64,000 nucleotides of DNA, from the NCBI RefSeq assembly GCF_019966535.1, contig NZ_JAIMID010000002.1:434001-498000 (forward strand), read 5' to 3'. The notes below the pieces were generated by a model. It worked only from the letters and a program-made list of their open reading frames with translations, had not been told where the DNA came from and ran no database searches. The stretch comes from Mesobacterium pallidum (GTDB lineage: Bacteria; Pseudomonadota; Alphaproteobacteria; Rhodobacterales; Rhodobacteraceae). This document shows, piece after piece, positions 1 to 55,300 of this stretch (the stretch's first letter is position 1; each line of letters starts with the position of its first letter). The translations under genes were made by a program, and so were the position numbers.

Positions 1-917
<917 letters not shown>

Positions 918-1159: not shown

Positions 1160-2047
1160 ATGGGCACATTTACCCGCCAGGGCGGCTTGGTCTACAACGG
1201 CACCAGCGGCACGGTCAGCTACCAGAACAGCTTTGTCGAAGAATCCACGGCCTCGGACGGCGACACGGACAATACGTGGGAAAGCGGCGACACCGACCTC
1301 TTCGAGAGCGGCGCCAGCTATTACGGCCAGATCACGCTGACCCTCACGGCCGGTGGCACGGTCGTCGCACCGGTCATCGTCACCGCGTCGCTGACGGTCA
1401 TCGAACTGCCATTGGGCACCTACCCCACCGACGTTGACATCCCCGGCACGGTCGACCTTGGCGCGCTGAGCACCGAACCGATGGTGGTCTGCTTTGCCGC
1501 CGGCACCCGCATCGCCACCCCGGCGGGCGAGGTCGCGGTCGAAACGCTCGCCATCGGCGACAGCGTGCTGACCGCGGACGGGCGTAACGTGCCGGTCAAG
1601 TGGATCGGCCGCCAGGCCGTCGACCCGCGCTTTGTTCCGGCCGCGCGGCTGCAGCTGATCCGCATCGCCAACGGGGCCCTGGGCCGCGGCTTGCCGCAGG
1701 GCGACCTGGTGGTTACCGCCGATCATGGCATGGTGCTGGAAGGCGTGATCTGCCACGCCGGCGCTCTGGTGAACGGGACCACGATCACCAAGGCCCCGGT
1801 GGCCGAGACCTACACGGTCTACCACGTCGAGACCGAGGCGCACGAGATCATCCTCGCCAATGGCGCGGCCTCGGAGACCTTTATCGACAACGTCGCCCGC
1901 AGCGCCTTCGACAATTACGCCGAGTTCGTCGCGCTCTATGGCGACGACCCGGCGCCGATGGTCGAACTGCCCCTGCCCCGCGCCCATGTGGCCCGGCAGG
2001 TGCCGCCGGCGCTGCGGGCCCGTCTGGCGCCCGTCGCCGCCGCCTGA
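1160..2047 (+). CDS. Hint-domain protein 1 of a five-gene tandem array
   Basis: This 295-residue protein has a variable N-terminal domain (1-110) and a C-terminal Hint (Hedgehog/intein-type, Hint_2-like) domain. Visible Hint features are the splice/cleavage-type Cys111 in 'VVCFAAGTRIATP', the 'GEVAVETLAIGD' strand, the block-B type T-x-x-H in 'VVTADHGMVLEG', and the closing 'HEIILANGAASETFIDN'. A conserved tail 'PLPRAHVARQVPPALRARL' follows. No signal peptide or membrane segment is seen. I chose ATG 1160, which has AGGA four bases upstream, over an in-frame TTG at 1133. By family analogy Cys111 could undergo an N-S acyl shift and release the N-domain; this is inferred. The 242 bases upstream include TTAATTAA at 1053-1060. 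Confidence 0.88.
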   Translation: MGTFTRQGGLVYNGTSGTVSYQNSFVEESTASDGDTDNTWESGDTDLFESGASYYGQITLTLTAGGTVVAPVIVTASLTVIELPLGTYPTDVDIPGTVDLGALSTEPMVVCFAAGTRIATPAGEVAVETLAIGDSVLTADGRNVPVKWIGRQAVDPRFVPAARLQLIRIANGALGRGLPQGDLVVTADHGMVLEGVICHAGALVNGTTITKAPVAETYTVYHVETEAHEIILANGAASETFIDNVARSAFDNYAEFVALYGDDPAPMVELPLPRAHVARQVPPALRARLAPVAAA

Positions 2048-2225
2048 TCCACACCGGCTGCCTGCGCCGAGACCGCGCGCGGGCAGCCATTGTTGCCGCA
2101 AGGCAGACTTTTCGCTATCCTCCTCGGGCGGCCCCTGACCCGCCCCTTGGCCGCCGTTTCGTTTTCGGCGGGCCGTGGCATCGTCTCTGCCGACCCGCCA
2201 CGCGCGGACATGGCGGGGGAACATC

Positions 2226-3110
2226 ATGCCGACGACCGAGACTTACACGCATTTCTATTTCAAGACGCTTTCCGGCACGACCTACGAGAGCGTTGCGCCC
2301 ACGATGAATACCCTGACCGACGGCTCGGATGCGGATGGCCTGAACGGCCAGACCCTGCCCGGTCAGCCGATTCTGTGGTCGATCACGCAAAGCGGCGGCA
2401 CACCGACCCGCTACTGGGGCCAGACCGACAATGGCGATCCGATCATTTACGTCGATTACGGCGGCGGCAACGCCTTCCTCTACATCCCCTCCAACACCCA
2501 CGGGCTGGTCGGCACGACCTTCACCCCGGATTACACGGCCATCTACGTCTATTGTTTCGCCCAGGGCACGCGGATCGCCACGCCGCACGGCGAGCGCCCG
2601 GTCGAAAGCCTGGCCATCGGGGACCTGGTGACCGACATCGACGGGGCGTCCGTGCCGGTGCGCTGGCTGGGGCGGCAAAGCCTTGCCTTGCCGTTCTGGC
2701 GCGGCAAGGACCGGTCGCTGATCGAGATCGCGGCCGGCGCGCTTGGCCCGGACATGCCGCACAGCCCGCTGCGCGTGACCGCCGATCACGGGATCCTCAT
2801 CGATGGCGTGATCTGCCATGCCGCGGCCCTGGTGAACCGCGACACGATCCGCAAGGTGCCCGCCGATCCCGGCTGCACCGTCTACCACGTGGAAACCGAG
2901 CGGCAGCAGATCATCCTCGCCAACGGCGCCCCGGCCGAGACCTTCATCGACAACGTCGCGCGACGGGGCTTTGACAATTACGCCGAGTTCGCCGCGCTTT
3001 ACGGCGACGATCCGGCGCCGATGGCCGAGTTGCCGCTGCCCCGCGCCCAGGTCGCGCGGCAGGTGCCGCCCGCGCTGCGCCGCCGCCTCGCCCGGCGCGG
3101 CGCCGCCTGA
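2226..3110 (+). CDS. Hint-domain protein 2 of the tandem array
   Basis: This 294-residue paralogue of the preceding gene has an N-terminal domain of 1-109, with 'YWGQTDNGDPIIYVDYGG' and 'AFLYIPSN'. The Hint domain starts at Cys110 ('YVYCFAQGTRIATPHGE') and carries T-A-D-H in 'LRVTADHGILIDGVICHAA'. It ends in 'AETFIDNVARRGFDNYAEF' plus the shared tail 'PLPRAQVARQVPPALRRRL'. The start ATG 2226 has GGGGGA about 7 bases upstream. The gap to the previous gene is 178 bases and contains a small CCGCCG/CGGCGG inverted repeat at 2151-2171, so it may have its own promoter. The Hint modules of genes 1-3 are clearly more alike than their N-domains. Function is unknown; self-cleavage is inferred from the intact Cys and TxxH. 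Confidence 0.88.
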   Translation: MPTTETYTHFYFKTLSGTTYESVAPTMNTLTDGSDADGLNGQTLPGQPILWSITQSGGTPTRYWGQTDNGDPIIYVDYGGGNAFLYIPSNTHGLVGTTFTPDYTAIYVYCFAQGTRIATPHGERPVESLAIGDLVTDIDGASVPVRWLGRQSLALPFWRGKDRSLIEIAAGALGPDMPHSPLRVTADHGILIDGVICHAAALVNRDTIRKVPADPGCTVYHVETERQQIILANGAPAETFIDNVARRGFDNYAEFAALYGDDPAPMAELPLPRAQVARQVPPALRRRLARRGAA

Positions 3111-3184
3111 GGCCCGGGCACGGCAGGCGCGTGGCTGCCCACCCGGGCATGCCGCGCCGTTGATCCCGAGGGAGGACGCAGAAC

Positions 3185-4054
3185 TTGGCAACATTTGACT
3201 TCAACGCCCGCACCTTCTTTGACACAAGTACGGGGGCCTGGTCGGGTCGCAGCTTCGGCGCCTCCTTCCCGGTGACCGACGGCGAGTCGGACGCGGTCTT
3301 CGACCTGGGCGACACCCTGACCTTCGGCGCGAACACCGGCACCTACATCGGCACGATGACCTATCTTGGCACGGCCTACCCGGTCCTGCAATCGGCGAGC
3401 ACCGTGACCATCCTGGGCCTCACGGCCACCGCCGCGCAATTGCCTGACACCGACAGTTTCACTGTCGTGGCCGAGGATTACGCCCCCTGCTTCCTGGCCG
3501 GCACGCGGATCGATACGCCGGACGGCCCCCGCAGGATCGAGACGCTGGCGCCGGGCGACAGGGTGCTTACCGCCGAGGGCCGCGCCGTGGCGCTGCGATG
3601 GGTCGGTCGCCGCGCCGTGTCGACCCGCTTCGGGCTGGCCACCCGGCTGCTGCCGGTCCAGCTGGCCGCCGGCGCGCTGGGCGAAGGCGTGCCGCGCCGG
3701 GACCTGCGGGTCACCGCAGATCACGGGATCATCATCGACGGCGTCATCTGCCACGCCGCCGCGCTGGTCAACGGCCGCACGATTACCCGGGTGCCGCCCG
3801 CGCAGTTCGGGGACAGGTACACGGTCTACCACCTTGAGACCGAGGTGCAGGAGGTGATCCTGGCCGAGGGTTGCCCGGCCGAGACCTTTGTCGACAACAT
3901 GGGCCGGCAGGCCTTTGACAACCACGCAGAACACGCCGCGCGCTTCGGCCCGGATCCCGCCCCTGTGCAGGACCTGCCCCTGCCCCGGGCCCAGACCGCG
4001 CGGCAGCTGCCGGCGTCGATCCGCGCCCGCCTTGCGGCCTCTTCAGCCGCCTGA
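3185..4054 (+). CDS. Hint-domain protein 3 of the tandem array
   Basis: This 289-residue protein begins at TTG 3185, supported by a strong GGGAGGA about 9 bases upstream; no better ATG exists. The N-domain (1-101) reads 'GDTLTFGANTGTYIGTMTY', a beta-rich pattern that loosely recalls gene 1. The Hint domain begins at Cys102 ('APCFLAGTRIDTPDG'), with T-A-D-H in 'RVTADHGIIIDGVICHAA' and closing 'AETFVDNMGRQAFDNHAEH'. The tail is 'PLPRAQTARQLPASIRARL'. It lies 74 bases after gene 2 on the same strand and may be co-transcribed. No signal peptide is visible. Function is unknown. Confidence 0.87.
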   Translation: MATFDFNARTFFDTSTGAWSGRSFGASFPVTDGESDAVFDLGDTLTFGANTGTYIGTMTYLGTAYPVLQSASTVTILGLTATAAQLPDTDSFTVVAEDYAPCFLAGTRIDTPDGPRRIETLAPGDRVLTAEGRAVALRWVGRRAVSTRFGLATRLLPVQLAAGALGEGVPRRDLRVTADHGIIIDGVICHAAALVNGRTITRVPPAQFGDRYTVYHLETEVQEVILAEGCPAETFVDNMGRQAFDNHAEHAARFGPDPAPVQDLPLPRAQTARQLPASIRARLAASSAA

Positions 4055-4384
4055 GCGGACCGAATCCAGCACGGAGCCTAGACTCTTTCCAGGCAGTCAC
4101 CCCCTCGGTCGCTGCCCTTTTTTCGCGCGTTCCGCCACCTGATTTTCCCGCGTCAGATGTATCTGTTCGGAAAGGAGAAACCTTCGTTTCTGAAACGGTA
4201 GTTGTTAACCGTTTGTTAACTAAATTCCGCGCATCACGGGGCAAGAACGCTTGCGCTCCGAACGGTGTGATACCTCACCTCCGATCCCTCGCAGCGCGGC
4301 GAAACGCGGGTGCCGAGAAAGATGCGTCCGCAGCGGTGTTTACAAGGATCCGGCGGCGGGGCCGCGGGTCTTCGGGGGAAGATC
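4055..4384 (+). other. AT-richer intergenic region before Hint gene 4
   Basis: This 330-base stretch without a gene is clearly richer in A/T than its surroundings around 4140-4230. It holds a perfect CtrA-type site (4205-4220) and a small hairpin AGAAAC-CTTC-GTTTCT (4176-4191). That hairpin overlaps a second one, GTTTC-T-GAAAC (4186-4196), so the two would be mutually exclusive. It probably contains the promoter of the fourth Hint gene. Confidence 0.55.
4205..4220 (+). promoter_or_regulatory. Candidate CtrA-binding site
   Basis: The sequence TTAA-CCGTTTG-TTAAC is an exact match to the full CtrA recognition pattern TTAA-N7-TTAAC known from alphaproteobacteria. It lies 164 bases upstream of the start of Hint gene 4, inside the AT-richer intergenic region. 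The two halves are also part of a direct repeat TTGTTAAC (4202-4209 and 4213-4220). CtrA control is an inference from the motif alone. Confidence 0.55.
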
Positions 4385-5290
4385 ATGGCAAACGTCACTT
4401 TCAACAGCCTTCTGCGTTTTTCAGGTGCAACGTTCGGCTCAAACACAATGAGTTGGTCCGGCAGTCCCACAAACATCAATGCGACCGTTACGGTAGTGGA
4501 TGGAAACCCGCAGGGGGTAATGAACACTAGCGATTACATGACCGTGGTGGACGCCCCGTATCATGGCTACACAGTCGAAATTGATGGCATCGACTTTGCA
4601 ATCTTTTTCAAGAGCGGCTTTGCGTACATTCCCTATTCCACCACCTATCCTTTGCAGCCCTCGGATTTCCCTGGCACATCGATTTCGGTTACTGCCGAGG
4701 CACAAGCCAGCGTCGCCAACTGCTTCATGGCCGACACGATGATCGCCACCCCCCGGGGCGAGGTCGCCGTGCAGGACCTGCAGCCGGGCGACGAGATCAC
4801 CCTGACCGATGGCAGCGCCGCCCCGGTCCGCTGGGTCGCCCGGCAGGCGCTGATGCCCGTCTTCGGCCTGCCCGAGCGCAACCGCATCGTCGAGGTCGCC
4901 CCCGGCGCGCTGGGGGACGGGGTGCCGCACAGCACCCTGCGCCTGACCTCGGATCACGCGCTGCTGCTCGATGGCGTGCTCGTCCATGCCGGGGCCCTGA
5001 TCAACGGCGACACGATCCGCATGCTGCCCGACCACGAATTGCCCGAGCGCTTCACCGTCTACCATGTCGAGACCGAGAGCCACGCCGTGCTGCTGTCGAA
5101 CGGTGCGCCCTCCGAGACCTTCATCGACAACGTGCCGCGCAGCGCCTTCGACAACCACGACGAATACCTCGCGATGTACGGAAAAGACCAACCGCTGACC
5201 GAGGCCGACTATCCCCGCGCCATGAGCGCGCGCCAGGTGCCGATGGCCCTGCGCGCCCGGTTGAACCGGGACATCCGCGCCTCGGCCTGA
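4385..5290 (+). CDS. Hint-domain protein 4 of the tandem array
   Basis: This 301-residue protein starts at ATG 4385, with GGGGGA just upstream. The N-domain (1-112) is aromatic- and Asn-rich ('YHGYTVEIDGIDFAIFF', 'FAYIPYSTTYPL'). It is encoded by visibly more A/T-rich DNA than the Hint half, as if the two halves had different histories. The Hint domain starts at Cys113 ('VANCFMADTMIATPRGE') and has T-S-D-H in 'LRLTSDHALLLDGVLVHAG'. It closes 'SETFIDNVPRSAFDNHDEY', with tail 'YPRAMSARQVPMALRARL'. Together with gene 5 it forms a second subfamily (TMIATP, HALLLDGVLVHAG) distinct from genes 1-3 (TRIATP, HGxxxxGVICHA). A CtrA-type site lies upstream. Function is unknown. Confidence 0.88.
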   Translation: MANVTFNSLLRFSGATFGSNTMSWSGSPTNINATVTVVDGNPQGVMNTSDYMTVVDAPYHGYTVEIDGIDFAIFFKSGFAYIPYSTTYPLQPSDFPGTSISVTAEAQASVANCFMADTMIATPRGEVAVQDLQPGDEITLTDGSAAPVRWVARQALMPVFGLPERNRIVEVAPGALGDGVPHSTLRLTSDHALLLDGVLVHAGALINGDTIRMLPDHELPERFTVYHVETESHAVLLSNGAPSETFIDNVPRSAFDNHDEYLAMYGKDQPLTEADYPRAMSARQVPMALRARLNRDIRASA

Positions 5291-5634
5291 TCCGGCGTTT
5301 CGGTCCCTCTTTCCTCTGACGACGTCCTGCCACCAGGCATGGCAGGTTGCGTAACGTCATCCATGTCGCGCCATCCGAGCATAGGTGGGCAGGACCACGC
5401 TCCTGCATTCTCAACCCTTTGAGATTTCGAATGTATCCTGGTCAGGTCGCGACAAGCTGCCACGCTGCAATGCAGAAAAATGTGCGCATCGCACGTATTG
5501 AAATCGATTTAGGCGCCCTCTAGCCAAGGTCTGCGAAGCGCATCTCGCCACAGGCTGCGGAGCCGCCCATGTTGGACGGGCCCGCAGCGACGCAGTGCCG
5601 GCCGCGCGGGTCTTGAGTTAACGAGGACAGATCA
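5291..5634 (+). other. Intergenic region between Hint genes 4 and 5
   Basis: This 344-base stretch has no convincing gene on either strand. The stretch 5400-5515 is A/T-richer than the flanks and is a plausible promoter region for gene 5. No clear terminator hairpin or operator was recognised. A lone TTAAC half-site occurs at 5617. Confidence 0.4.
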
Positions 5635-6543
5635 ATGGCGAAAACCGACATGCACCGCGCCCTCCATTTCCGGGGCGGCAGAAGAATGGACGGCACGTTC
5701 AGCGACCAGGGCCACGCCCAGTCCGGCGGCACCCAGACCGTCCACGCCAAGGACGACGATGTCGCCGTCAGCCCGGGCGACACCCAAGACGGCAGCACCG
5801 CCTGCCCGGGCATCACGATCGACGTGAACGGCATCGCCGATGCGCTCGTCACCGACGGGTCGGGCGGTTCCCACATCCCCCATTCAAGCAGCGACCACCC
5901 GCTTTCCGCCGCCGATGTCCCGGACGCGGCCCGGGACTCCCTCCAGTCCGTCCCCGTGCCCCATGACGAGACCGCCGAGGTCGCGACCTGCTTTGCCGCC
6001 GGCACGATGATCGCCACGCCCGCAGGCGAAGTCGCGGTCGAGGCGCTGGCGATCGGCGACCTGGTCACGCTCGAGGATGGCCGCGACGTGCCCGTCCGCT
6101 GGTTGGCCATCCAGACGCTGAAGCCGATCCTGTGCCTGCCCGAGCGCAACCGCATTGTCGAGATCGCACCTGGCGCATTGGGGGACGGGCTGCCGCACAG
6201 CACGCTGCGCCTGACCGCCGGCCACGCGCTGCTGCTGGACGGCGTCCTGGTCCATGCCGGGGCGCTGGTCGGGGCCACGGGCATCCGCGTGATGCGCGAC
6301 GACGAACTGGGTCAGGGTTTCACCACCTACCATGTCGAGACCGAGACGCAGGAGATTCTGCTGGCCAATGGCGCGGCCTCGGAAAGCTTCGTCACCAATG
6401 TCTCGCGCCGCGCTTTCGAAAATTTCGCCGAGTATACCGCGCTTTACGGGCCCGAGACCGACATCGCCCCGGCGCCCTATCCCCGCGCCACGGGCATGCG
6501 GCAGGTCAGCGCCCGTCTCGGGGCGCAGACCGAAGCGGCCTGA
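5635..6543 (+). CDS. Hint-domain protein 5 of the tandem array, with polar N-domain
   Basis: This 302-residue protein starts at ATG 5635, with GAGGA upstream. The N-domain (1-118) aligns with that of gene 4 ('GITIDVNGI' to 'GYTVEIDGI'; 'HIPHSSSDHPL' to 'YIPYSTTYPL'). Nearly all aromatic and bulky residues are replaced by His, Ser, Asp and Gly, and there is an extra Cys57. The Hint part is normal: Cys119 in 'VATCFAAGTMIATPAGE', T-A-G-H in 'LRLTAGHALLLDGVLVHAG', closing 'SESFVTNVSRRAFENFAEY'. The shared tail is shorter and altered ('YPRATGMRQVSARL'). It ends 7 bases before the convergent GST gene. The N-domain may be disordered or decaying. Function is unknown. Confidence 0.85.
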   Translation: MAKTDMHRALHFRGGRRMDGTFSDQGHAQSGGTQTVHAKDDDVAVSPGDTQDGSTACPGITIDVNGIADALVTDGSGGSHIPHSSSDHPLSAADVPDAARDSLQSVPVPHDETAEVATCFAAGTMIATPAGEVAVEALAIGDLVTLEDGRDVPVRWLAIQTLKPILCLPERNRIVEIAPGALGDGLPHSTLRLTAGHALLLDGVLVHAGALVGATGIRVMRDDELGQGFTTYHVETETQEILLANGAASESFVTNVSRRAFENFAEYTALYGPETDIAPAPYPRATGMRQVSARLGAQTEAA

Positions 6544-6555: not shown

Positions 6556-7156
6556 CCGGGGGCGGGCCGTCCTGCGTCGCCGCCCAGGCCAGGCTTGGGT
6601 GCGCGCCGCTGCGGGCCGCCCAGTCCAGGGTTGCGGGGCCAAGGGGCAGCATGTCCTTGAACAGTTGGAACGGGGCCGAAACCAGCAGGTCCACGGCCGA
6701 GTAGTCCTCGCCCAGAAGCCAGGGGCCCTTGGCCAGGCGGCTTTCGATCACCTCCAGCATCTCGGGCACGCCGCGAAAAGTGGTCTGCACCGCCGGGTTG
6801 TCGGCCACGCCCGCCACCTGCGCCACCAGCACCGGCTCGACCACGTTGCCGTACCAGGCCATCAGCGACAGGTAGTCGCCCCGCCCCGGCTGGCCGACCT
6901 GGCGGCCCAGCGGGCTTTGGAAGAAGTCCGTCAGGTAGACGAGGATCGCGTTGGTCTCGCGGATCAGCTCTCCGTCGTGCACCAGCACGGGCACCTTGCC
7001 CTCGGGGTGCGGGTTGGCCGGGTCGCGCTGGCCCGAGCCGTCGCGGCGCGGGATGTCGACGATCTGCAGGCTGACGCGGTCCAGCGCGTCCATCGCGTGC
7101 AGCAGCGCCAGTACGGTGGTCGAACGGCTGCGGGGGGCGTGGTAGAAGGTCAGCAT
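6551..7156 (-). CDS. Glutathione S-transferase family protein
   Basis: This 201-residue cytosolic protein has GST architecture. A thioredoxin-like N-domain (about 1-80) begins 'MLTFYHAPRSRSTTVLALLH' and carries 'GKVPVLVHDGELIRETNAIL', which has the cis-Pro and the glutathione-contacting E-T/S region. An all-helical C-domain contains the typical 'PWLLGEDYSAVDLLVSAPF'. Start ATG 7156 has AGGAG upstream; longer starts to 7219 are possible but lack this. Substrate is unknown. It lies upstream of nothing obviously related: the ccm genes are on the same strand but end 104 bases away. Confidence 0.9.
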   Translation of the reverse strand: MLTFYHAPRSRSTTVLALLHAMDALDRVSLQIVDIPRRDGSGQRDPANPHPEGKVPVLVHDGELIRETNAILVYLTDFFQSPLGRQVGQPGRGDYLSLMAWYGNVVEPVLVAQVAGVADNPAVQTTFRGVPEMLEVIESRLAKGPWLLGEDYSAVDLLVSAPFQLFKDMLPLGPATLDWAARSGAHPSLAWAATQDGPPPA

Positions 7157-7260
7157 GGCAATGGCTCCTGGGCGCTTTGAAATCGCGGCCAACATGTCCG
7201 CGGGCGCCATGCCCGGCAAGCCCCGGCTGACAGGCTGCTGTCAGCAGCCGCCACCAGCGG

Positions 7261-7809
7261 TCAGCTGCCGGCCGCCGCCAGGGCCTCTTGCAGGGCGGGC
7301 AGGAAGCGCTGTTCGTAGTCGGAGCCCACCAGCGGGCCGGCGAACTTGAACAGCACCGTGCCGTCACCGTCGATGATGAAGGTCTCGGGCGGCGCGGTCA
7401 CGCCCCATTCGATGGCAAATCGCCCGCGCGGGTCGAAGCCCAGCGCGCCGAAGGGGTTCTCGTAATCGGCAAGGTATTTCTGCGCCTGCGCCAGCTCGTC
7501 CTTGAAGTTCACGCCGTAGACGGGCAGGCCCTGCGCGTCGAGATCCAGCAGCGTCGGATGCTCGGCCCGGCAGGGCGGGCACCACGAGGCCCAGAAGTTC
7601 ACGATTGACACCTCTCCGCCCGCTAGCGTCTCGGCGGTCAGCAGGGTTTCGCCCGGCAGGGTCTCGTCCGGCAGCACCGGCGCCACCTGGCCGATGAAGG
7701 TCGAGGGCAGCCCCTGCGGATCCTCGCGGTACATGCCGAAAAAGAATAGCCCGGCCAGCCCGGCAAACAGCGCGGGCGGCAGGATCATCAGCGGGTTAAG
7801 TCTTGCCAT
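7261..7809 (-). CDS. ccmG: Cytochrome c maturation thiol:disulfide oxidoreductase CcmG/DsbE
   Basis: This 182-residue periplasmic thioredoxin is anchored by an N-terminal membrane segment (about 7-26, 'LMILPPALFAGLAGLFFFGM'). The active site 'FWASWCPPCRAEHP' has the CcmG-type W-C-P-P-C, followed by 'VYGVNFKD' and the cis-Pro region 'GVTAPPETFIID'. It keeps apocytochrome c or CcmH cysteines reduced for haem ligation. It is the last gene of ccmABCDG; its ATG overlaps the ccmD stop by 14 bases. Confidence 0.95.
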   Translation of the reverse strand: MARLNPLMILPPALFAGLAGLFFFGMYREDPQGLPSTFIGQVAPVLPDETLPGETLLTAETLAGGEVSIVNFWASWCPPCRAEHPTLLDLDAQGLPVYGVNFKDELAQAQKYLADYENPFGALGFDPRGRFAIEWGVTAPPETFIIDGDGTVLFKFAGPLVGSDYEQRFLPALQEALAAAGS

Positions 7810-7954
7810 TGCGGCGTGCCTCGATGTCTTCCAGTTCGGCCTTGACCTTGGCGGCGCGGCGGATCGACCACCAGACCAGCGCGATCAAAAGTACGAGAGA
7901 GGCGGCATAGGCCGACAGGACCGTATCCGCGTATTTTCCAAGGTCGGGCATCAT
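7796..7954 (-). CDS. ccmD: Haem exporter protein CcmD (small membrane protein)
   Basis: This 52-residue protein begins MMPDLGKYADTVLSAYAAS, has one hydrophobic segment ('LVLLIALVWW') and a basic tail ('SIRRAAKVKAELEDIEARR'). This is the CcmD pattern: CcmD helps release holo-CcmE from the CcmABC complex in the inner membrane. The first of two adjacent ATGs overlaps the ccmC stop (ATGATG around TGA), and the 3' end overlaps ccmG. Size, topology and position between ccmC and ccmG make the call safe despite low sequence information. The start could equally be 7951. Confidence 0.88.
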   Translation of the reverse strand: MMPDLGKYADTVLSAYAASLVLLIALVWWSIRRAAKVKAELEDIEARRNGKT

Positions 7955-8679
7955 GCGGCGCGCTCCCGTGCGAGGATGGCCTTGATCCGGCGCGCGCGGA
8001 TTTCCGTGCGGGTGCGCAGCAGCACCAGCGCCAGGAACAGCAGGACGAACCCGGCCATGCAGACCAGCAGCGGGTACCAGAAGACATCGGCTACGTTTTC
8101 CTCGGCATCCATGGACAGGGACGCGCCCTGGTGCAGGCCCTGGTTCCAGAAGAGGACCGCGTAGCGGCTGAGCACGGCAAAGACCGAGCCGACGAGGCAG
8201 AGGATCGAGGTGAGGTCAGCCGCCGTGTCCGGGTTCTCGATCGCGTCCCACAGGGCCATGTAACCCAGGTAGAACAGGAACAGAATCAGGAAGGACGTGA
8301 GCCGCGGGTCCCAGGCCCACCAGGTGCCCCACATCGGCTGGCCCCAGATCGCCCCGGTCACCAGCGCGATGACGGTCATGACCATGCCCACCGGTGCGGC
8401 GGCCTTGGCGGCCAGCGCGCTGACATGGTGCCGCCGCACGATCCAGATCAGCGAGGCGACCAGCATCATCAGCCAGGAGTTGATCGCCATCAGCGCCGCG
8501 GGCACGTGCAGGTAGATGATCTTGACCGTGGCCCCCTGGCGGTAATCCTCGGGCGTGAAGAAGAAGCCCCAGACCAGCCCGATCACGAGGCACGCGAGGG
8601 CCAGCCCGGAAACCCAGGGCAGCACCTTGCCCGACAGGGCCAGGAACTTCTTCGGATTGGCATATTCCCAAAGCGACAT
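7951..8679 (-). CDS. ccmC: Haem ABC exporter permease/haem-handling protein CcmC
   Basis: This 242-residue polytopic inner-membrane protein starts 'MSLWEYANPKKFLALSGK', as CcmC does. The conserved tryptophan-rich periplasmic motif reads 'WGQPMWGTWWAWDPRLTS', which binds haem in CcmC/CcmF proteins. Histidines occur in 'IYLHVPAA' and 'GLHQGASL'. CcmC loads haem onto CcmE. Start ATG 8679 follows GGGGAG; an in-frame upstream ATG lacks this. It overlaps ccmD at the 3' end. Confidence 0.96.
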   Translation of the reverse strand: MSLWEYANPKKFLALSGKVLPWVSGLALACLVIGLVWGFFFTPEDYRQGATVKIIYLHVPAALMAINSWLMMLVASLIWIVRRHHVSALAAKAAAPVGMVMTVIALVTGAIWGQPMWGTWWAWDPRLTSFLILFLFYLGYMALWDAIENPDTAADLTSILCLVGSVFAVLSRYAVLFWNQGLHQGASLSMDAEENVADVFWYPLLVCMAGFVLLFLALVLLRTRTEIRARRIKAILARERAA

Positions 8680-8721
8680 GAGTTCTCCCCTACCCTTTCG
8701 CCGGCCTCTCATCAATTCAAC

Positions 8722-9378
8722 TTAGCGCAGGTTCATCCGTAGTACCGCAGCCGAGGCAAAGGGCAAAAGCGCGATAGTGCCGCAGGTGATCCCGGCGAGC
8801 ATCAGAAGCGGCGTCATCGGGTCGAGCCCGGCGGCCCCGCGCCGCGCCACCTCGGCGCCGAAGATCAGCGTGGGCACGTAAAGCGGCAGGACCAGCAGCG
8901 ACAGCAGCAGCCCGCCGCGCTTGAGGCCGACCGTGAGCGCGGCGCCGAAGGTGCCCAGCACCGACAGCGCCGGCGTGCCCAGCGCCAATGACAGCGTCAG
9001 CCAGGGATAGCCCGGGCCCGGCAGGTTCAGGAGCACGCCCAGCACCGGCGCGGCCAGCACCAGCGGCAGCCCGGTGGTGACCCAATGCGCCAGCGCCTTG
9101 ATGGTCACCACCCCTTCAAGCGGCAGCGGCGAGGTCGCCATGAGGTCGAGCGATCCGTCCTCCCAGTCCAGCGCGAGGATGCGGTCGAGCGACAAGAGAC
9201 AGGCGAGCAAGGCCCCGAGCCAAAGCACGCCTGGCGCGATGGCCGTCAGCAGCGGCGTTTCCGGGCCGACGCCAAAGGGCACCAGCACCACGACGATCAG
9301 GAAGAACGCAAGGCCCAGGCCGAAACCGCCCCCGGCCCGCACGGCCAGCGCAAGGTCACGGCGCAGCAGGGCGATCAC
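8722..9378 (-). CDS. ccmB: Haem ABC exporter permease CcmB
   Basis: This 218-residue protein has about six membrane segments and matches CcmB ('[15 protein letters not shown]', '[19 protein letters not shown]', '[18 protein letters not shown]'). It is the permease partner of CcmA in cytochrome c maturation. The start is GTG 9378, which overlaps the ccmA stop as GTGA, so translation is probably coupled. Confidence 0.95.
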
Positions 9379-9992
9379 AGGAAGGCCTCTTCGAACCCGC
9401 CGGGAATGTCGCGATGCACCGCCTTGTGCGACGTCACGTCCAGCACCCGCGCCTCAAGGCCGAGGTCGATATGGGTCGCGATCAGCGCCGCGCCTCCGCC
9501 CGCGAGATGGGCCCGCACCGCGGCGGCGAAAAGCTGGACCGAGGCGGTATCGAGCGACACGGTCGGTTCGTCCAGCACCCAGAGCGGCCGGCCGGTGACC
9601 AGCAGCCGCGCAAGCCCCAGCCGCCGCTTCTGCCCGGCGCTGAGCGTGCCGGCCTGGCGGTCGGCAAGGCTGCGGAGGTTGAACCGGTCCAGCGCCGCCT
9701 CGATGCTGGACTGGCCAAAGACGCTGGCCCAGAACGACAGGTTCTCGGTGACCGTCAGCATGGATTTCAGCCCGTCGGCATGAGCGGCATAGGCGACAGA
9801 CTCCTCGGCCACCTCGAGCGTGCCCGACAGCGCCGGCTGCAACCCCGCAACCGTGCGCAAGAGCGTCGTCTTGCCGGCCCCGTTCGGCCCGCGCAGGATC
9901 AGCGCCTCTCCGGCCCCGAGCGCAAAGCTGAGCCCTTCGAGGACGGGCACGCCGCCGCGCGCGATGGCAAGATCGGATGCTTTGACCAACAT
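9375..9992 (-). CDS. ccmA: Haem ABC exporter ATP-binding protein CcmA
   Basis: This 205-residue ABC ATPase has Walker A '[18 protein letters not shown]', signature '[15 protein letters not shown]', Walker B '[12 protein letters not shown]' and switch His 'IATHIDLG'. It powers the CcmABC complex that frees haem-loaded CcmE. I chose ATG 9992 because GAGG lies 6 bases upstream; the in-frame ATG 9998 would abut the ribosome site. It is the first gene of ccmABCDG; the ccmEFH partners are not in the window. Confidence 0.95.
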
Positions 9993-10303
9993 GGTCATCC
10001 TCGTAGCCCATCCCCCTGCCCCCGAAAAGAGACAAACCCGCGCGGCCCGGCCCCGGGTCAAGGCCGCGCGCCGCGCGCCGGCGCAGCCGGGCGAAGCGCC
10101 TTGACGCGGGGACGGGCCGCATCACGCCGGACGAGGCGCGTCTCTGGCAGACCTGCCCCTGAACCGCGTCTCAGCAAAACGCGAAACCCCCGCCACCGGA
10201 ACCGGCCGCGGGGATCTGCGTCGCCTCTCGGCTCGTTGATTAGAAGCCTGCGGTAGCAGACAATTGGATCGACCCGGCGCCGATGCGGCGCCGGGCCATC
10301 AGG
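9993..10303 (-). other. Intergenic region between ccmA and the TRAP genes
   Basis: This 311-base GC-rich stretch has no supported gene. It must hold the ccm promoter (minus strand, not recognised) and the end of the TRAP transcript. Besides the hairpin at 10273-10295 it contains an imperfect pairing of CCCCCGC with GCGGGGA near 10190-10216. Confidence 0.35.
10273..10295 (-). terminator. Hairpin downstream of dctM
   Basis: A perfect 10-bp stem CCCGGCGCCG/CGGCGCCGGG with loop ATG lies 9 bases past the dctM stop codon. No long T-run follows on the minus strand, so termination may be inefficient. Confidence 0.5.
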
Positions 10304-46327: not shown

Positions 46328-49300
46328 TCAGCTCCAGTCGATCGCCGCCTGAGGGTGCGCCAGCAGCATCTGATCCGCAAGCCCCGTCTCGTCGCCCGCG
46401 CCGGTATCTATCGACAGCACGGTTTCCTCGAGCGCGAAGGTGCCGCCGGCCAGGATGGCCCCCCGCGCGCCGTAGATGCGCAGCGTGACGTCGCCCTCGG
46501 CCAGGTCCAGCGCCTTGGCCAGGAAGGCCATGCGCCGGCCCGTGGGGATGAAGGCCTCGCCCTCTTCCAGCACGCCCGAGGCGGACTCGATCGTGTAGAG
46601 GAAGGACACAGGCTCGGTCGCGGCACGGTCAAGCCGCACCACGAATTCGGCCCGGTCCCAGCCGCCGGGGGCAGTGCCAAAGCCCGACCGCTCGACCGAC
46701 AGCGTGGGCTGCCAGATGCGGATCGGCTCGGACAGCACCAGCGGGCTGGTCGTCGCCTCGCCCGGAGCGCCCCAGTCGACGGTTTGCGACGGGGCTGCGG
46801 GCGCGGCGGTCACGTTGACCGTCACCGACAGCAGCGTCTCGTAGCCGCCCTGGTCGATGGCCGCCACCTCGAAGACCCGCACCCCGGTGCTTGCGCCCGC
46901 AGGCACGGACCAGTCGACCCGGCCCGTCGGAGAGACGGTCAGCAGGCCCGGCCCGGACCGTTTTTCGAACGTCAGCGCGCCGCCGTCCGGGTCCTCGGCC
47001 CGCCAGCCGAGGAACAGGGTGAGCGTCTCGCCTGCCGTCACGTTCTGCGCCGGCGGCGTGTTGGTCCAGACCGGGGCCCGGTTCACCACGTCGATCAGCA
47101 GCGGGGTGCTGGTGGTCGCGCCGTGTTCGTCCGTCACGTTCAGCGTCCAGCTGATCGTCTCGGTCGGCTTGCCGTACCAGGGCGACCAGGTGATTTCCCC
47201 GGTCGCGGCGTCGATGGACGCCTGGCCCGGCGCCCCGTCGAGGCCGTATGTCACGGCGTCGCCCTCGACATCGTTGACATGGGCCGAGGCGTCGAAGGTC
47301 AGCAGGCCGCCCGCGAAGACCTGCGGCGTGGGCAGGCCGTTCACCCGCGGCGCGAGGTTGACGTCGATGGTAAAGGACGTCTCGGTCTCGGTCCCCGCCG
47401 CGTCGATGGCCGCCACGGTGAAGGTCTTGAGGCCCGTGGACACCCAGACCGGCAGGTCCCAGGTGAAGAGGCCCGTCGCGCCGTCCAGCGCGCCCGTGCC
47501 GGGGCCGCCGCGCAGCTCGTAGGCCAGCACGCCGCCCTCGGGGTCACTGGCAAAGGCGGTGAGGTCGATGGTGACCACGTCGCCTTCGTTCGCATCGCGC
47601 GGCGGGATGGCGGCCCATTCGGGCGCGCTGTTGGTCACGTCGATGCGCAGCGTTTCCAGCGTCTCGGCGCCCAGTGCGTCGATGGCGGCGATCACCACCT
47701 CGACCGGGCCGGTCGGCTGGCTCAGCGGCACGGTCCAGTCGAACCGGCCGCCGGCATTGACGCTGGCCCCGGCGGGACCCGAGCGCATCTCGAAGGTCAC
47801 GTCCGTGCCCTCGGGATCGGTCACGCGCCAGCCCAGGAACAGGCGGATGGCATCGCCCGCATCGGCCGCCTGGTTCGGGATCGGATCGGTCCAGACTGGT
47901 GCCGCGTTGGTCACCTCGAGCGTGATGGTCTGCACCGTCTCGAGGCCTGCGGCGTCGATGGCGGCCACGTCGAAGGTGACCGGGCCCGACGGCTGATCCA
48001 GCGGCACATCCCAGCTGAGACGCCCCTTGGCGTTCAGCGTGGCGCCCGCCGGGCCATCGCGCAAGGCAAGACTGATGTTGCCGCCATCCGGGTCCTCGAC
48101 CCGCCACTTGAGGAAGATGCGGAAGTTGTCGCCCGCATCCGCCGTCTGAACGGGCGGCGTGTTGGTCCAGACCGGCGCCCGGTTGATGACCTCGATATCG
48201 AGGTCCGAGCTGGCCTGCACGCCGTGTTCATCCGTCGCGGTCAGTGTCCAGGTGACGATCTCGCTGGGCTTGCCCAGGCGCGGGGTCCAGCTGATGACAC
48301 CCGTCGTGGCGTCGATCGAGGCGCTGCCGGGCGCGCCGACCAGGCCGTAGGTGACCGCGTCCCCCTCGACATCGTTGACGAAGGCCGAGGCGTCGAAGCT
48401 GAGCGCACCGCCCGCAAAGACCTGCGGCACCGGCAGCTCCCATATCTTGGGCGCGAGGTTGATGTCGATGGTAAAGGAGTTCTCGGTCTCGTTCCCGGCC
48501 GCGTCGATGGCCGCCACGGTGAAGGTCTTGATCCCGGTGGACACCCAGACCGGCAGGTCCCAGGTAAAGAGGCCGGTGGCCCCGTCCAGCGCGCCCGTGC
48601 CCGGTCCGCCGCGCAGTTCGTAGGCCAGCACGCCGCCTTCGGGGTCGCTGGCAAAGGCGGTGAGGTCAAGCGTGACCGTCTCGCCTTCGTTCGCGTCCAT
48701 CGGAGGGATCACCAGCCAGTCGGGCGCGGCATTGGTTACCACCACGTCGAAGCTTGCCGTCGTCTCGACCCCGGCGGCATCGATGGCCGCCACGGTAAAG
48801 CTGACCGGCCCGGAGAGCGTGTCGCCCGGGATCGACCAGTCCAGCCGTCCGCCGGCATCGACCGTGGCCCCGGCCGGGCCGCTGCGCAGCTCGAACGTCA
48901 GATCCGTGCCCTCGGGGTCGGTCGCCCGCCAGGCCAGGAACATGCGGAAATCCTCGCCCGCATTGGCCGGCTGGTCGGGAACCGCATCCCAGACCGGCGC
49001 CGCGTTCGCGACATTGACCGTAACCGTCAGCTCGGATGCGTTGCCCGCCGCGTCGATGGCGGCAAGGGTGATGTCGACCGCGCCGTTCGGCATGCTCGCC
49101 GGAACGGCCCAGTCGATCCGGCCGCCTTCGTTCACAGTGACACCCGCCGGGCCGTCGACCAGCGCGAAGGTCAGCGCGCCGCCCTCGGGGTCTTCGGCGC
49201 GGAACGCCGTGAAGAGGCGGAAGTCGCTGCCGGCATCCACCGATTGCACCGGCGGTGCATTGACCCAGACGGGTGCGGCGTTGGTGACGTCAAGCGCGGC

Positions 49301-52300
49301 CGATTGCAGCGTCTCGTTGCCCGCGGCATCGATCGCCGCGATCTCGAGCTGGACAAGCCCGTCCGGCTGGTCCAGCGGCACGGCCCAGGTCAGCTCTCCG
49401 GCCGGGGTCAGGGTGGCACCCGCCGGGCCGCTGCGCAGCTCGAACGTGATGGCGCCGCCCTCGGGGTCCTCGACGCGCCAGCCGAAGGCCATCGAGAAGG
49501 TCGTGCCCGCCGTCGCCTGCCGCACCGGCGGCGTGTTGGTCCAGACCGGTGCCGCGTTGGTCACATCGATGCGCACGATCCGGGTGTTGGCATTGCCAAC
49601 GTTGTCCATGGCCTCGACCGTGAACTCGTAGCGGTCGGTGGCGGCATCCAGCGGCGGCGTCCAGGTGAACTGGCCGGTGACCGGGTCGATGGCCGCGCCC
49701 GCCGGGCCGCTGATCAGCGTGTAGCCCAGCGCGCCGCCCTCGGGGTCGAAGACATAGGCCGCGACATCCACGACCGCCTCTTGTCCGGCGTCGGTGGCGA
49801 CCGGGGTGATGTAGGTCCAGCTCGGGTTGCGGTTGGTCACGTCGATGCGCAGGGTCCGCTCGTGGTCGAGCCCCTCGTCATCCACGACCGCCACGTCGAA
49901 CACGACGCGGTCGGTCGGCTGGTCCACGGGCGCGGTCCAGCTGAAGAGGCCCGTCACCGGATCCAGCGTCGCGCCGGCCGGACCGCCGCGCAGCTCATAG
50001 GTCAGCGGATCGCCGTTGGCATCGCTCGAGATCGCGGCAAGGTCGATCTGGAAGGTCTCGCCCGCGAACATGTCCTGCACCGGGATGAAGGACATGACCG
50101 GCGCGATGTTCCCCTCGGTCACGTTCAGCGTCACGATGGCCGTGGAGGAGGTGAGCGCATTGCCGGTCGAGCCCGCCGGATCGCCGGTGTCGGTCACGTT
50201 GAATTCGAAGGTCACCTGGCCCGAGAAGGTCGCAGGGGCGAGGTATTCGAACACCAGGTCGCTGATGCGGGTCAGCGTGCCGGTGGCCGGCGGGGTCGTG
50301 ATCTCGGCCCGCAGGTTGGCGGCCGGGGTCTCGAGGTCGGTGCCCGAGAGCACCAGCGTGGTGGTCACGCCGCCGGTCACCTCGACCGTCTGGGCGGTCG
50401 CGGTGGGGGCGTCGTTCACCGGGATCACGCTGATCGACACGGTGGCCGAGGCGGTACCCAGCTTGCCGTCGTCGACCACGAAGCCGAAGGTATCTCCTTG
50501 CGTCGAATCCGCGTCGGGGCGGTAGGTGACCGTGCCGGCGACGGGGTCGAAATTCTCGAGCGTGCCGTGCTGCGGCGCGCTGGTGATCGTGTAGACCAGG
50601 TCGTCCCCGTCCACGTCGCTGGCGGTCAGGGCGATCAGGACGCTGCCGTCCTCTGTCACGTTTGTGACCACCGGGGTGGCCACCGGCGCGGTGTTCGACG
50701 ACCGGTCGACCTCGAAGATATGGACGTAATCGCCGCCCTCGGTGCCGTTGTCGTCGCCGTCCAGCCGGTTGCCGGCGGTGTCGTAGATCGCCAGCGTGCC
50801 CGACAGGGTCAGGCGCCACATACCATCGGCCAGCGGGGCGTCGAAGCCCAGCACCAGGTCGGTTTCGGGGAAGGAATAGGACGGAGTCACCGCCACGACC
50901 ACGTCGTCGCCGGTGTCGAAGATGCCGTCCACCCCGGCGCCGCGCAGCTCGTAGTTGGCAGGGCTCCGGGCCGAGACCAGTTCCAGCGCCTCGCTCGTCT
51001 CGATCGAGATCGAGGTGAAGGCAAGGTCGGTCGTGCCGCCGGGCGCCGGCAGCGCGGGGATCGACACCACCGTCGGCGGGGTCACGTCGCCCGAGTCGCC
51101 CTGGAATTCCAGCGCGCCGATGTCGAAGTAGTTCAGCCCCGGCGCGCGCGCCCAGTCGCGGGTCGCGCCATCGGTCGGGATCGCCCCGTTCAGGTTCGAA
51201 TAGACGAAGGTCTCGCCATTGCCGGCCGACAGACCGACGCGGGCGCGGCTGTCATTGTTGCCGGCGCCGTATTCGAATTCGACCGTTCCGTCGTCATGCA
51301 GGATCACGGCAAAGTTAAGCTGCTCGGTGGTCGGCAACCCTTCGGTCGTGCCCGCCCAGCGGAACTTGACCCAGCTGTCATCGACGGCCTGGCTGCGGAA
51401 CACCCCGTCGGTGCCGCTCGTGTAGGTCCGCATCTCGGTCCAGAAGGGCGCGATGATCGGCCGGGACAGGAAGTTTTCCTCGGTGTTGGGGTAGTTCGGG
51501 CTTTGCGTGCCGAATTGCAGGTAGCCGTCGCTGACCACGCGGACCGAGGTGTATTCCTGGCCCTGGTAGTAGAAGCTGAACGGCAGCGCCTCGTCGCGGT
51601 AGCTGTTGGTCGTGCGCAGGCCGATCTCGGCCCCGTCATAGGCAAAGCTGCCGGTGCCGGGTGTTTCGATGAAAAGCTCGAACCCGTCGCCGGTGTTGGC
51701 GGTGGTCGGGTCGTCCGACCGCACGCGGCCGAAGAAATCGTGCAGCAACGCGCCGTAGGCCGTGCCGCTGTCGATCGCCAGGCTTCCCGCGTCGAGGTTG
51801 AAGTTGTCGTCGGCCCCGCCGCCCAGCGCGCTGTCGAGCCCGCCCAGCACGTTGTCGGCCCCGTCGATGTCGAGGAAGACCGGATCGCCCTCGACGCTGC
51901 CCAGCCCCTCGCCCGAGGCGGCGCGCCAGGCCGCGAGGTCGGTCTGCACGATGGCGCCCCAGGTGCCCACATCGGCCACGCCGGTGCCGCGGAAGAACAG
52001 GTTGTAATCCGAATTGACCGTGCCGCCGGTGCCGGTGACGCGGATCACGCTGCCCTGGTCCGATTGCAGGATGTTGTTGCGCAGGAACACGTTGGGCGTC
52101 GAGGCCGTGATGTCCAGCGCCGTGCCCACCGACTGGTAGATCGTGTTGCCGATGATGCGGGTGTAGCCGTTGCCCTGGTGCAGCACGCCGACGTTGGTGT
52201 TGTCGTAGATGACGTTCTGGCGCAGCGTGTGGGCGGTGTAGGTGCCGCTGTCCATCTGCACGCCGGTCGCGTTGGAATAGACCTTGTTACGCAGGAAGGT

Positions 52301-55300
52301 CGCGCTGCCCGAGCTCGATCCCGACAGGCCCAGCGTGTTGCCGAAGACGCGGTTGCCCTCGACCAGCGCATAGCTCGACCGGATGCCTGTCGCGCCGCCG
52401 TAGACGATGTTGTTCACCGCGGTGCCGTTATAGACCTCGATGTTGACGTCGCTGTTGCCGAAGACGGTGCTGTCCTCGATGCGCGAATTGGCTTCGCTGA
52501 GGTAGACGCCGTCGCCGCTGTTGTCGCGGATGATCGCGTCGCGAACCGTCACCTCGCCGCGGACGCTGACCGCCGCCGAAGTGCTGGTGCTGCCATAGGC
52601 CTCGAAGCCCTCGTAGACCGACCCCGGCCCCGCCGAATCGTTGTCGTCGACATAGAGCGCATAGTCGTTGTCGTAGAAGACGCCGCCGGTCATCTGCACC
52701 CGCTCGGCCGTGATGTAGGCGGCGTAGCTGGTCGAGTTGAGGCCGGTCTGGCTGATGTCGAGATCGATGAACGTGAGGTCCGTGTTGCCGGTCAGCGCCC
52801 GGAGGCCCTCGCCCTGGGTGCCGACGATGGTCACCGCGTCGAGCGTGATGAATTCGCTGCCCGCGCCCGTGTCCATGTGCACGCCGCGATAGCCGCCGGT
52901 CAGCGTCAGGTCCGAGATGGTGACGTGGTCGGCGCCGGTGAACTCGATGCCGTCCGCGCCGTTTGCGGTGCTGTTGCGGGTCAGCGTGGTCAGGCCCGCG
53001 CCCGCGCCGATGATCTCGACCGGGTTGCCCTCGGCGCCGCTGTCCTCGATCCCGAGGAAGATGTCCTGGGCGATGACGTAATTGCCGCTGTCGATCCAGA
53101 TGCGGTCGCCCGCCTCGAGGTCGTAGGCGCGCACCAGCGCGCCAAGGTCGGCCATCGGCGCATCGGCCGACTTGCCCGAATTGGCGTTGTCGCCCACCGC
53201 GGTGGTATAGACATCGCCGGTCAAGTCGTCGTCGTTGATGTAGAAATCCCGCCCGCCGTTGACGATGCGGAAGCCGTTGTCGGACACGTCCGTCAGCCCG
53301 CCGCCAACCTGGGTGACGCGCAGCAGCGCGGTCTCGCCCACCGTTTCCGGCGAGGCGGTCCAGTCGACATAGCCAAAGCCCGCGCGGTTGACCGTCACGG
53401 CCCCGGCGATCGGCGTCCAGCTGGCGCCGTTGTTGGTCGACAGCTCGAGGTCGAACTGCGGCGAGGCGGCCCCGCCCGGGTTCGCCCGGTAGAGCTCGAT
53501 CGCGCCCAGCTGCGGAGAGCCGAAATTGCCGTCGTCGCGGATCAGCTCGACCGTCATCACGCCGTCCACGGCGGTCACGCCCGACAGATCGATGGCGGTG
53601 CCGAAATAGGTCTGCCCCGCCAGGGTGCGGAACGATTGGTTCGTCGCAACCTCGACCCCGTTCACCAGCACCGAGAAGCTGTCCACCGTGTTCGACGCGG
53701 ACATGCCGTGCAGCCGCAGCCTGTAGGTGCCATCCGCGACCGGCAGGTCGTAGCGCAGCGTGTTGGAGTTGATCTGCCGCGTCAGGGCAAAGACGCCATC
53801 CGGGATCTCGGCATAGGCGCCGCCGGTCATGTAGGTATAGGTGTTGTACTCGGTCCCGCCCGAGACATAGGTCGCGGGCGAGCGGAACTCGACCCCGTCC
53901 TCGGCCAGCACGGTGCCCGAGGTGGCGCGCATGGCCAGCACAAGCTCTTGCGCCATCAGGTCGCCGGCGTGGAAGCCAAGGCGGTAGGTCTCGCCCTCCT
54001 CGAGCTTTTCGCCGCCGTTGGGCGACAGCACCTGCAGCACCGCGCCGCCCGATTCCGTCGCCTCGCCCGTGTTGCCATAGGCGCCGATATTGGCCCGGCC
54101 GCCGTTCTGGCCCGGCTCGCGCGCGAAGAGCGATCCCGGATCGCCCGCATCCACCCCCGCGGCCGCCGCGAGGAGGTGGAAGTCGAGCCCGGCGGCATCG
54201 ACGAACTGCGCCGCCGCCTCGAAGGAATGTTCGTCGCGGCCGGTCTGGTAATGCACCGTCTCGGCATCGGCATAGCCGACCCCGGCCCAGGTCAGGGCCA
54301 CGGCGCTGCCGCTGAGGTCGTACTGGTTGTAATCCGACCGGTAGCCGAACTGCGCGGCATTCCCGACCTGGACTGCCGTGCCCGCGGGCATCTGCACCAG
54401 GTTGTTGCGCACATGTGCATTGGTGGCGCCACCGGTCAGGTGGATGCCGATCTCGCCCAGGCCGCCCATCACGATCGTGTTGTTCTCGATCATGTGGCCG
54501 TTGCCTTCGCCGACGTAGATCCCGGTGCGGATCGCATCGCCGAAGATGACGTTGTTCTGAACGAAGACGGCATTGCTGTAATAGGGCGTCAGGCGGATGC
54601 CGAACTCGGACCCCGAGATGCGGTTGCGCTCGATCACGCCGTAGGGCTGCGTGCCGAAGCCGATGCCGGCATAGGTGTTGTCGACTGCGACGTTGTCGCG
54701 GATGCGCGCGTTGTAGCTGGCCTGGATGCCGGTGTTGTTGCCGCTGACAAAGCTGTTCTCGAGCACGCCGAAGGACGACCGGATGCCGACGCCGGTGTTG
54801 TCCATCGAGGTGATGTTGCTGCCGTAGACCGAGTTGAGGTCGATCGCGATGGTCGAGGTCGATCCCTGCGTGCCGGTGACGGTCACGTTGCGCACCTCGC
54901 CCGAATAGGAGGTGAGCGCGGTAAAGCGGCTGTCGGCCACGGTTAGCCCGTCGACCAGGGCGCTGGCCGCCTCGGACCCGATGTAAAGCCCGTAGCCGCT
55001 GGCATCGATGCTGCCGCCCAGCACCTGGACACGGTCGCCGCGCAGGTTGACGGCATAGCCGCTGGCCTCGGACCCGTTGGTCACCGCCATGTCGGTGACG
55101 ATGCCGTCATGGCTGCTGTTGTCGTACAGGATCGCCTCGTAGTCGAAATCGGTCGCGGTGATGCGCGTCAGCTCGACGAAATCCGAGTTGAGCACCCGGA
55201 TGCCGCGGTCGCCGTTGGTGATCGAAAGATCGCTCATGCGGATGTAATCGGCACCCGAGATGACGAAGACATCCGCGTCGGACACGCGGCTGTCACGGTC

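Follow-up and report, generated by a model that had tools for sequence, protein, structure and literature searches.

Five tandem genes between acnA and dsbE-ccmCBA of Mesobacterium pallidum as probable carriers of exchangeable cargo domains on a shared autoprocessing Hint module

Five adjacent genes in a 64,000-nt stretch of the Mesobacterium pallidum genome (parent genome 5.98 Mb; the whole stretch is called the window below) encode proteins that begin differently and end alike: each consists of an N-terminal domain (N-domain), a Hint domain and a conserved tail of about 50 residues. What would such different domains have in common that they should share one C-terminal partner, and how did the two parts come to be combined? 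In our reading, the proteins of the array are cargoes that share one autoprocessing module (Hint plus tail): the leading Cys of the Hint domain (Cys1) would form a thioester, an outside nucleophile would resolve it, the N-domain would be released or attached, and the module would be exchanged between copies. We assign this reading a probability of about 0.6. It starts from the observed domains, residue conservation, fold, locus and separate histories of the two halves, and from these we infer the chemistry, product, export and purpose.

All five genes lie on the forward strand (Table 1), each open frame with a purine-rich stretch upstream of its start codon; the corrected starts are an ATG at 2226 for gene 2 and a TTG at 3185 for gene 3. 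The proteins match the Pfam family Hint_2 (PF13403) with scores of 108–133 bits, far above the curated cut-off of 28.4 bits, and cover positions 1–145 of the 147 in the profile; with E-values from 6e-31 to 1e-38 in all five, the assignment is not due to chance. The Cys follows 110, 109, 101, 112 and 118 residues in genes 1–5, respectively, in agreement with the initial annotation, which had described five Hint proteins with a Cys after an N-domain of 101–118 residues. A promoter scan of the array found sites no more numerous than in shuffled sequences, and predicted terminators were near the shuffled count.

The modules belong to a distinct subfamily of Hint_2. Its 174 distinct members score 200–350 bits on the subfamily's own profile, nearly all other Hint_2 proteins remain below 130 bits, and the module is 185–198 residues long in nearly all members. 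All 174 have Cys1 and the His of both block B and block F; the Glu of the block-F motif YH.E is invariant as well, and the Glu of the downstream ETF motif occurs in all 173 members that have a letter at this position. The block-B motif TxxH, claimed earlier for all five array proteins, was found in each of them: TADH in genes 1–3, TSDH in gene 4 and TAGH in gene 5, the last variant occurring once among the 174 relatives. Gene 5 departs from the pattern at several conserved sites (TAGH, ESFVTN, RWLAIQ) and may be in decay or under relaxed constraint.

The structure predicted for the gene 1 protein has a Hint fold at residues 108–243 (predicted local distance difference test, pLDDT, 90; predicted template modelling score, pTM, 0.63); in view of this pTM the placement of domains in the model is less sure. 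The fold matches a class 3 intein and a bacterial intein-like (BIL) domain at Z 12 and the Hedgehog Hint domain at Z about 11 (1at0, 6tyy). Model residue 240 aligns with intein residue 145, the terminal Asn; since the penultimate His and the terminal Asn thus fall on E239 and T240, ‘ET’ is the counterpart of the intein ‘HN’. The end motifs ETFIDN, ETFVDN and ESFVTN, proposed to stand where inteins end in His-Asn, are present as described; the exact counterpart is narrower, ‘ET’ only, and the Asn after ETF[IV] is variable, with DN or DY among members. Glu-Thr occupies the His-Asn positions in nearly all members, and a C-terminal His-Asn followed by a C-extein nucleophile was not found. Protein splicing by these Hint domains is therefore unlikely; they are likely instead to cleave N-terminally, in the manner of B-type BIL or Hedgehog domains. 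The sequence basis of the earlier preference for cleavage over splicing is supported: the Hint fold retains Cys1 and block B and has lost the splicing end. Its assignment to the Hedgehog type in particular is not supported as stated. The B-type BIL class fits at least as well, many folds match about as closely as the Hedgehog Hint does, and nothing points to an adduct.

Residues and fold support a reaction in which Cys1, aided by the Thr and His of block B and by the invariant block-F His, would convert the peptide bond between N-domain and Cys into a thioester. With Glu-Thr in place of His-Asn, Asn cyclisation, and hence splicing, is not expected to follow. As the splicing end is missing, the thioester would be resolved by an external nucleophile, either water or an acceptor amine, thiol or hydroxyl group; this would release the N-domain or attach it to something, probably at the cell surface or outside the cell. 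The two halves would evolve as separate units, the module being exchanged among paralogues and each type of N-domain remaining under purifying selection.

Separate histories of the halves are visible both within and between genomes. Median identity within genomes is 57–77% for modules and 17–28% for N-domains (11–21% for shuffled N-domains). In arrays located next to the aconitase gene acnA, the nearest relative belongs to the same array in 31 of 40 cases by module and in 13 of 40 by N-domain, with about 6.5 obtained by label shuffling; between genomes, the N-domains of this locus are at most 40% identical. Comparison of Nioella sediminis with Nioella MMSF_3534 gave 14 orthologues that are 71–100% identical in the N-domain, and in 11 of these 14 pairs the synonymous divergence (dS) of Hint exceeds that of the N-domain (medians 0.37 vs 0.16, p=0.005). 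The ratio of nonsynonymous to synonymous divergence (dN/dS) of N-domains is 0.23 and 0.13 (in the close species pair, 0.23 vs 0.11 for Hint), so the N-domains are under purifying selection and are not diversifying now.

Base composition points in the same direction. N-domains have a more variable synonymous GC than modules, and in 146 of 171 cases a lower one; control genes have a smaller 5′ effect, and the excess in N-domains beyond it is significant (p=3e-4). In gene 4, GC at fourfold sites rises from 0.61 in the N-domain to 0.99 in Hint, sharply at the boundary (p 1e-9), which fits a foreign N-domain joined to a resident module. Window positions 4100–4720, comprising the intergenic region and the gene 4 N-domain and ending near the Hint start, are AT-richer (GC about 0.47–0.65), as would be expected of a recombined segment. 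On this evolutionary evidence cargo swapping on a common module is well supported.

What the cargoes are is partly answered by their predicted structure and by the other proteins that carry the module. N-domains share a faint pattern, D..GD followed by Y.G....G. Predicted alone from 105 sequences, the N-domain yields a confident all-beta model of six strands (pLDDT 97, pTM 0.89). Neither the PDB nor the viral structure library contained a match to this model at E <= 0.001, Z 3.4 being the best value on a second look; any one Pfam family matched at most 1 of the 105 N-domains, and any one PHROGs family at most 3 of the 105 full proteins. The idea that the N-domain is already known under another name was dropped for want of Pfam, PHROGs, PDB or viral structure support, an absence of matches being no proof of a new fold.

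The subfamily module is also C-terminal on an M10/serralysin-type metalloprotease with RTX repeats and on an RTX-repeat protein, and it stands behind an L-type-lectin-like domain (below the curated cut-off) and behind a weak, beta-helix-like match to polymorphic repeats. The M10/serralysin, L-type lectin, beta-helix and RTX types are extracellular kinds of protein, and it is from such kinds sharing the module that export of the array products is suggested. The initial view of a common module with swappable cargo is borne out by these additional cargoes together with the similar modules behind unrelated N-domains, the unlinked synonymous divergence and the GC break in gene 4. In two Nioella species (L029:2536-4824, L038:9563-11842) the module directly follows the M10_C/RTX end of the M10/serralysin-type protease.

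The tail has nearly invariant Arg, Pro and Asn positions in the subfamily alignment, and its model contains only two short helices. Compared across homologues, it is conserved within the subfamily but cannot be aligned to the tails found elsewhere in Hint_2; the profile alignment ends at the ETFID motif, and the idea of a tail common to the rest of Hint_2 was dropped. The suggestion that the tail is equivalent to the Hedgehog adduct-recognition region thus stands as to conservation and goes beyond any tested evidence as to the role; given a tail conserved in the subfamily yet unalignable elsewhere, adduct recognition is possible and unproven.

Other accounts of the array have to be weighed against autoprocessing with cargo exchange, and two of them differ from each other in the fate of the cleaved N-domain. 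Hint and tail could be a temporary handle for folding or export that is removed by hydrolysis, leaving the N-domain or a longer cargo as the mature secreted product. The module is the last part of extracellular-type proteins, the M10/serralysin-type RTX protease included, and a specific adduct has left no trace; we regard this as a serious contender that nonetheless falls short of even odds, as neither the tail ends nor the pre-Cys segments are like RTX C-termini. On a profile of 32 RTX C-termini (a small, imperfect set of loosely defined signals) the pre-Cys segments score −6.3 on average, compared with −7.8 for shuffles and +4.4 for left-out training ends. A type I secretion signal exposed by cleavage (e.g. 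LDTSDYPF before Cys, RTX-like by eye) was dropped family-wide after these scores. Alternatively, transfer may be of the Hedgehog type, with the tail as an adduct-recognition region that presents one acceptor (a lipid, sugar or amine) to which the N-domain becomes covalently anchored. A C-terminal Hint without a splicing end, a tail with nearly invariant residues and a Hedgehog Hint among the fold matches agree with such transfer; inteins and BIL domains match the fold equally, the tail with its two short helices cannot be aligned to other Hint_2 tails, and no acceptor is indicated, so that we consider this account doubtful. Equally tentative is the most far-reaching form of the autoprocessing reading, in which a recombining array at a conserved locus would use its self-cleaving Hint for the covalent delivery or attachment of many small extracellular domains, of a beta fold new to the PDB, to one surface acceptor.

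It is improbable that the Hint is a structural or binding domain that does not cleave and retains its invariant residues for folding. Cys1 is missing from several other Hint_2 proteins of the genome whose frames are nonetheless intact, and array gene 5 deviates at TAGH and ESFVTN, but within the subfamily Cys1, the block-B His and the block-F His are without exception. Slightly less probable still is an explanation by ordinary duplication and differing constraint, under which N-domains would simply evolve fast and the contrast with Hint would arise with no exchange between copies. The dN/dS of N-domains in the close pair is indeed about twice that of Hint, and the Hint excess in dS is missing in a more distant species pair (4 of 8); yet the orthologues of close species remain highly identical with a dS mostly below that of their own Hint, and the two halves differ in synonymous composition, with the sharp break in gene 4. 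Some of these observations also weigh against the autoprocessing, cargo-exchanging array itself: the disappearance of the dS excess with distance, the lack of resemblance of tail ends and pre-Cys segments to the RTX C-termini of that small and imperfect training set, and the loss of Cys1 from some other Hint_2 proteins of the genome, from which it follows that cleavage is dispensable for some members of the wider family.

The location of the array is itself conserved. In ten genomes acnA is immediately upstream of subfamily genes, which number 5 (the window), 4, 1, 1, 1, 1, 1, 5, 7 and at least 13; dsbE/ccm genes are found on the far side in 7 of the 10 (within the stretch examined). In the window, a minus-strand gene that we take to be GST-like (glutathione S-transferase; no NCBIfam match) lies between the array and dsbE-ccmCBA. 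Among sampled genomes of the family, acnA and ccmC are convergent and within 20 kb in 33; the gap is below 1.2 kb in 18 of these, little beyond what dsbE itself needs, and 7.0 kb in the window. As the junction is conserved and in many other genomes tightly packed, the array grows at, or was lost from, a fixed acnA-ccm site. A comparison of the flanks of array loci found no widely common neighbour gene except at the acnA-ccm locus. The idea of a conserved partner gene was dropped on this result; a small tail-collar/microcystin-dependent-like group recurs, in Nioella, Phaeobacter and Roseicyclus only. Genes of this group adjoin Hint genes, for example, in L047 (about 6763–7422) and L086.

The wider family is common and the subfamily patchy. 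PF13403 is present in 16 of the 19 Rhodobacteraceae genomes examined and absent from all 12 genomes examined that belong to the class's other families; one study found it over-represented in fast-responding Rhodobacteraceae (PMC12487129). Strong matches to the subfamily (E < 1e-50) occur in 18 of 296 genomes of the bacterial family, with scattered members also in Mesorhizobium, Ancylobacter, Chelatococcus and a metagenome-assembled genome of Thiohalocapsa. The M. pallidum genome has about 20 Hint_2 proteins, seven of them in the subfamily (the array and two single genes elsewhere); among its Hint_2 proteins some are long and RTX-type with Hint_2 at the end, others are small, and several lack Cys1. 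Frames are intact in the Cys1-less proteins L012, L016, L017, L019 and L020, and the wider family probably includes members that do not cleave. Nioella ostreopsis has at least 42 subfamily members and 62 Hint_2 matches in total. Copy numbers in Nioella are minimum values, as the repeated module appears to break assemblies; many Nioella contigs start or stop within a few kb of subfamily genes (e.g. L034, L035, L040, L044).

How far does the array belong to a known system? A self-processing Hint on secreted-type proteins is an already known kind. The array proteins pass the Hint_2 cut-off by far and have in common with the wider family a C-terminal Hint on secreted-type proteins and the ES/TF end; the array subfamily is set apart by score, by a tail of its own, by small N-domains of extreme diversity, by tandem arrangement and by the fixed acnA-ccm locus. 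B-type BIL domains lack the intein-like C-terminal motif, are reported to cleave N-terminally in a manner uncoupled from splicing and reside in variable proteins (PMC7765530, PMC4031507). By the description in these reviews, the subfamily resembles them in retaining motifs A, B and F with Cys1 in the absence of the C-terminal intein motif, and in its variable secreted-type proteins (N-domains of low identity; serralysin-type, lectin-like and RTX fusions); it differs in the conserved tail that always stands behind Hint. The Hedgehog Hog domain shares the Hint fold, Cys1, TxxH, the missing splicing end and a C-terminal Hint with a tail; the subfamily differs in its bacterial cargo, in a tail that is unrelated as far as compared, and in that no sterol or other adduct is indicated. 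Polymorphic toxin systems with PT-HINT (e.g. MafB-like) also combine Hint with variable partner domains in arrays. In these systems the variable toxin domain is downstream of Hint, whereas in the subfamily the variable part precedes Hint and only the conserved tail follows. Class 1 and class 3 inteins share the fold, Cys1 and block B, but the subfamily has no terminal His-Asn and no C-terminal extein, and its members are not splicing elements.

No description of a tandem, locus-bound, cargo-exchanging form of Hint was found in the literature searched, which was thin and included few subscription journals. New here are the array at the conserved convergent acnA and dsbE-ccmCBA junction, its similar modules and dissimilar N-domains with unlinked histories, N-domains under purifying selection with a confident all-beta model and no PDB match, and the module at the end of serralysin-type, lectin-like and RTX proteins. 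The shared module has the look of a reusable handle by which many cargoes could be released or attached. For inteins and animal Hedgehog, self-processing by Hint is understood, and the function of bacterial PF13403 is barely covered in the same literature: searches on PF13403 function, BIL domains in Rhodobacter and Hint in Roseobacter or exoproteomes returned almost nothing, with poor coverage of subscription journals. One module with dozens of different front domains in a single genome, at a fixed locus across genera, makes a tractable set for studying natural cargoes, the N-domain fold and any acceptor.

Table 1. Coordinates of the Hint array, of selected gene 1 motifs and of conserved neighbours in the window
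Feature	Position	Strand	Details	Support
Gene 1	1160..2047	+	N-domain 1160-1489; Cys1 codon 1490-1492; Hint about 1490-1894; tail to 2044; stop 2045-2047	Pfam Hint_2, E 1e-38
Gene 1 T186-A-D-H189	1715..1726	+	TxxH of block B	His invariant in 174 members
Gene 1 H222-V-E224	1823..1831	+	block F	H222 and E224 invariant in 174 members
Gene 1 E239-T240	1874..1879	+	at the site of the intein His-Asn	fold alignment, model 111..240 on intein 1..145
Gene 2	2226..3110	+	N-domain 2226-2552; Cys1 codon 2553-2555; Hint and tail to 3107	Hint_2, E 5e-34
Gene 3	3185..4054	+	N-domain 3185-3487; Cys1 codon 3488-3490; Hint and tail to 4051	Hint_2, E 4e-37
Gene 4	4385..5290	+	N-domain 4385-4720, low synonymous GC; Cys1 codon 4721-4723; Hint and tail to 5287	Hint_2, E 3e-33
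Gene 5	5635..6543	+	most divergent; N-domain 5635-5988; Cys1 codon 5989-5991; Hint and tail to 6540; TAGH, ESFVTN	Hint_2, E 6e-31
acnA, 3′ part	3..917	+	conserved left neighbour	NCBIfam aconitase A, E 6e-134
dsbE, ccmC, ccmB, ccmA	7261..10061	-	conserved right neighbours	NCBIfam

At the other end of the window, a giant open frame on the minus strand occupies positions 46331–64000 (5890 codons within the window) and runs past the window end. A genome search reported an RTX-repeat open frame, 9602 aa in length, immediately past this end; the giant frame probably encodes a very large repeat protein or adhesin.

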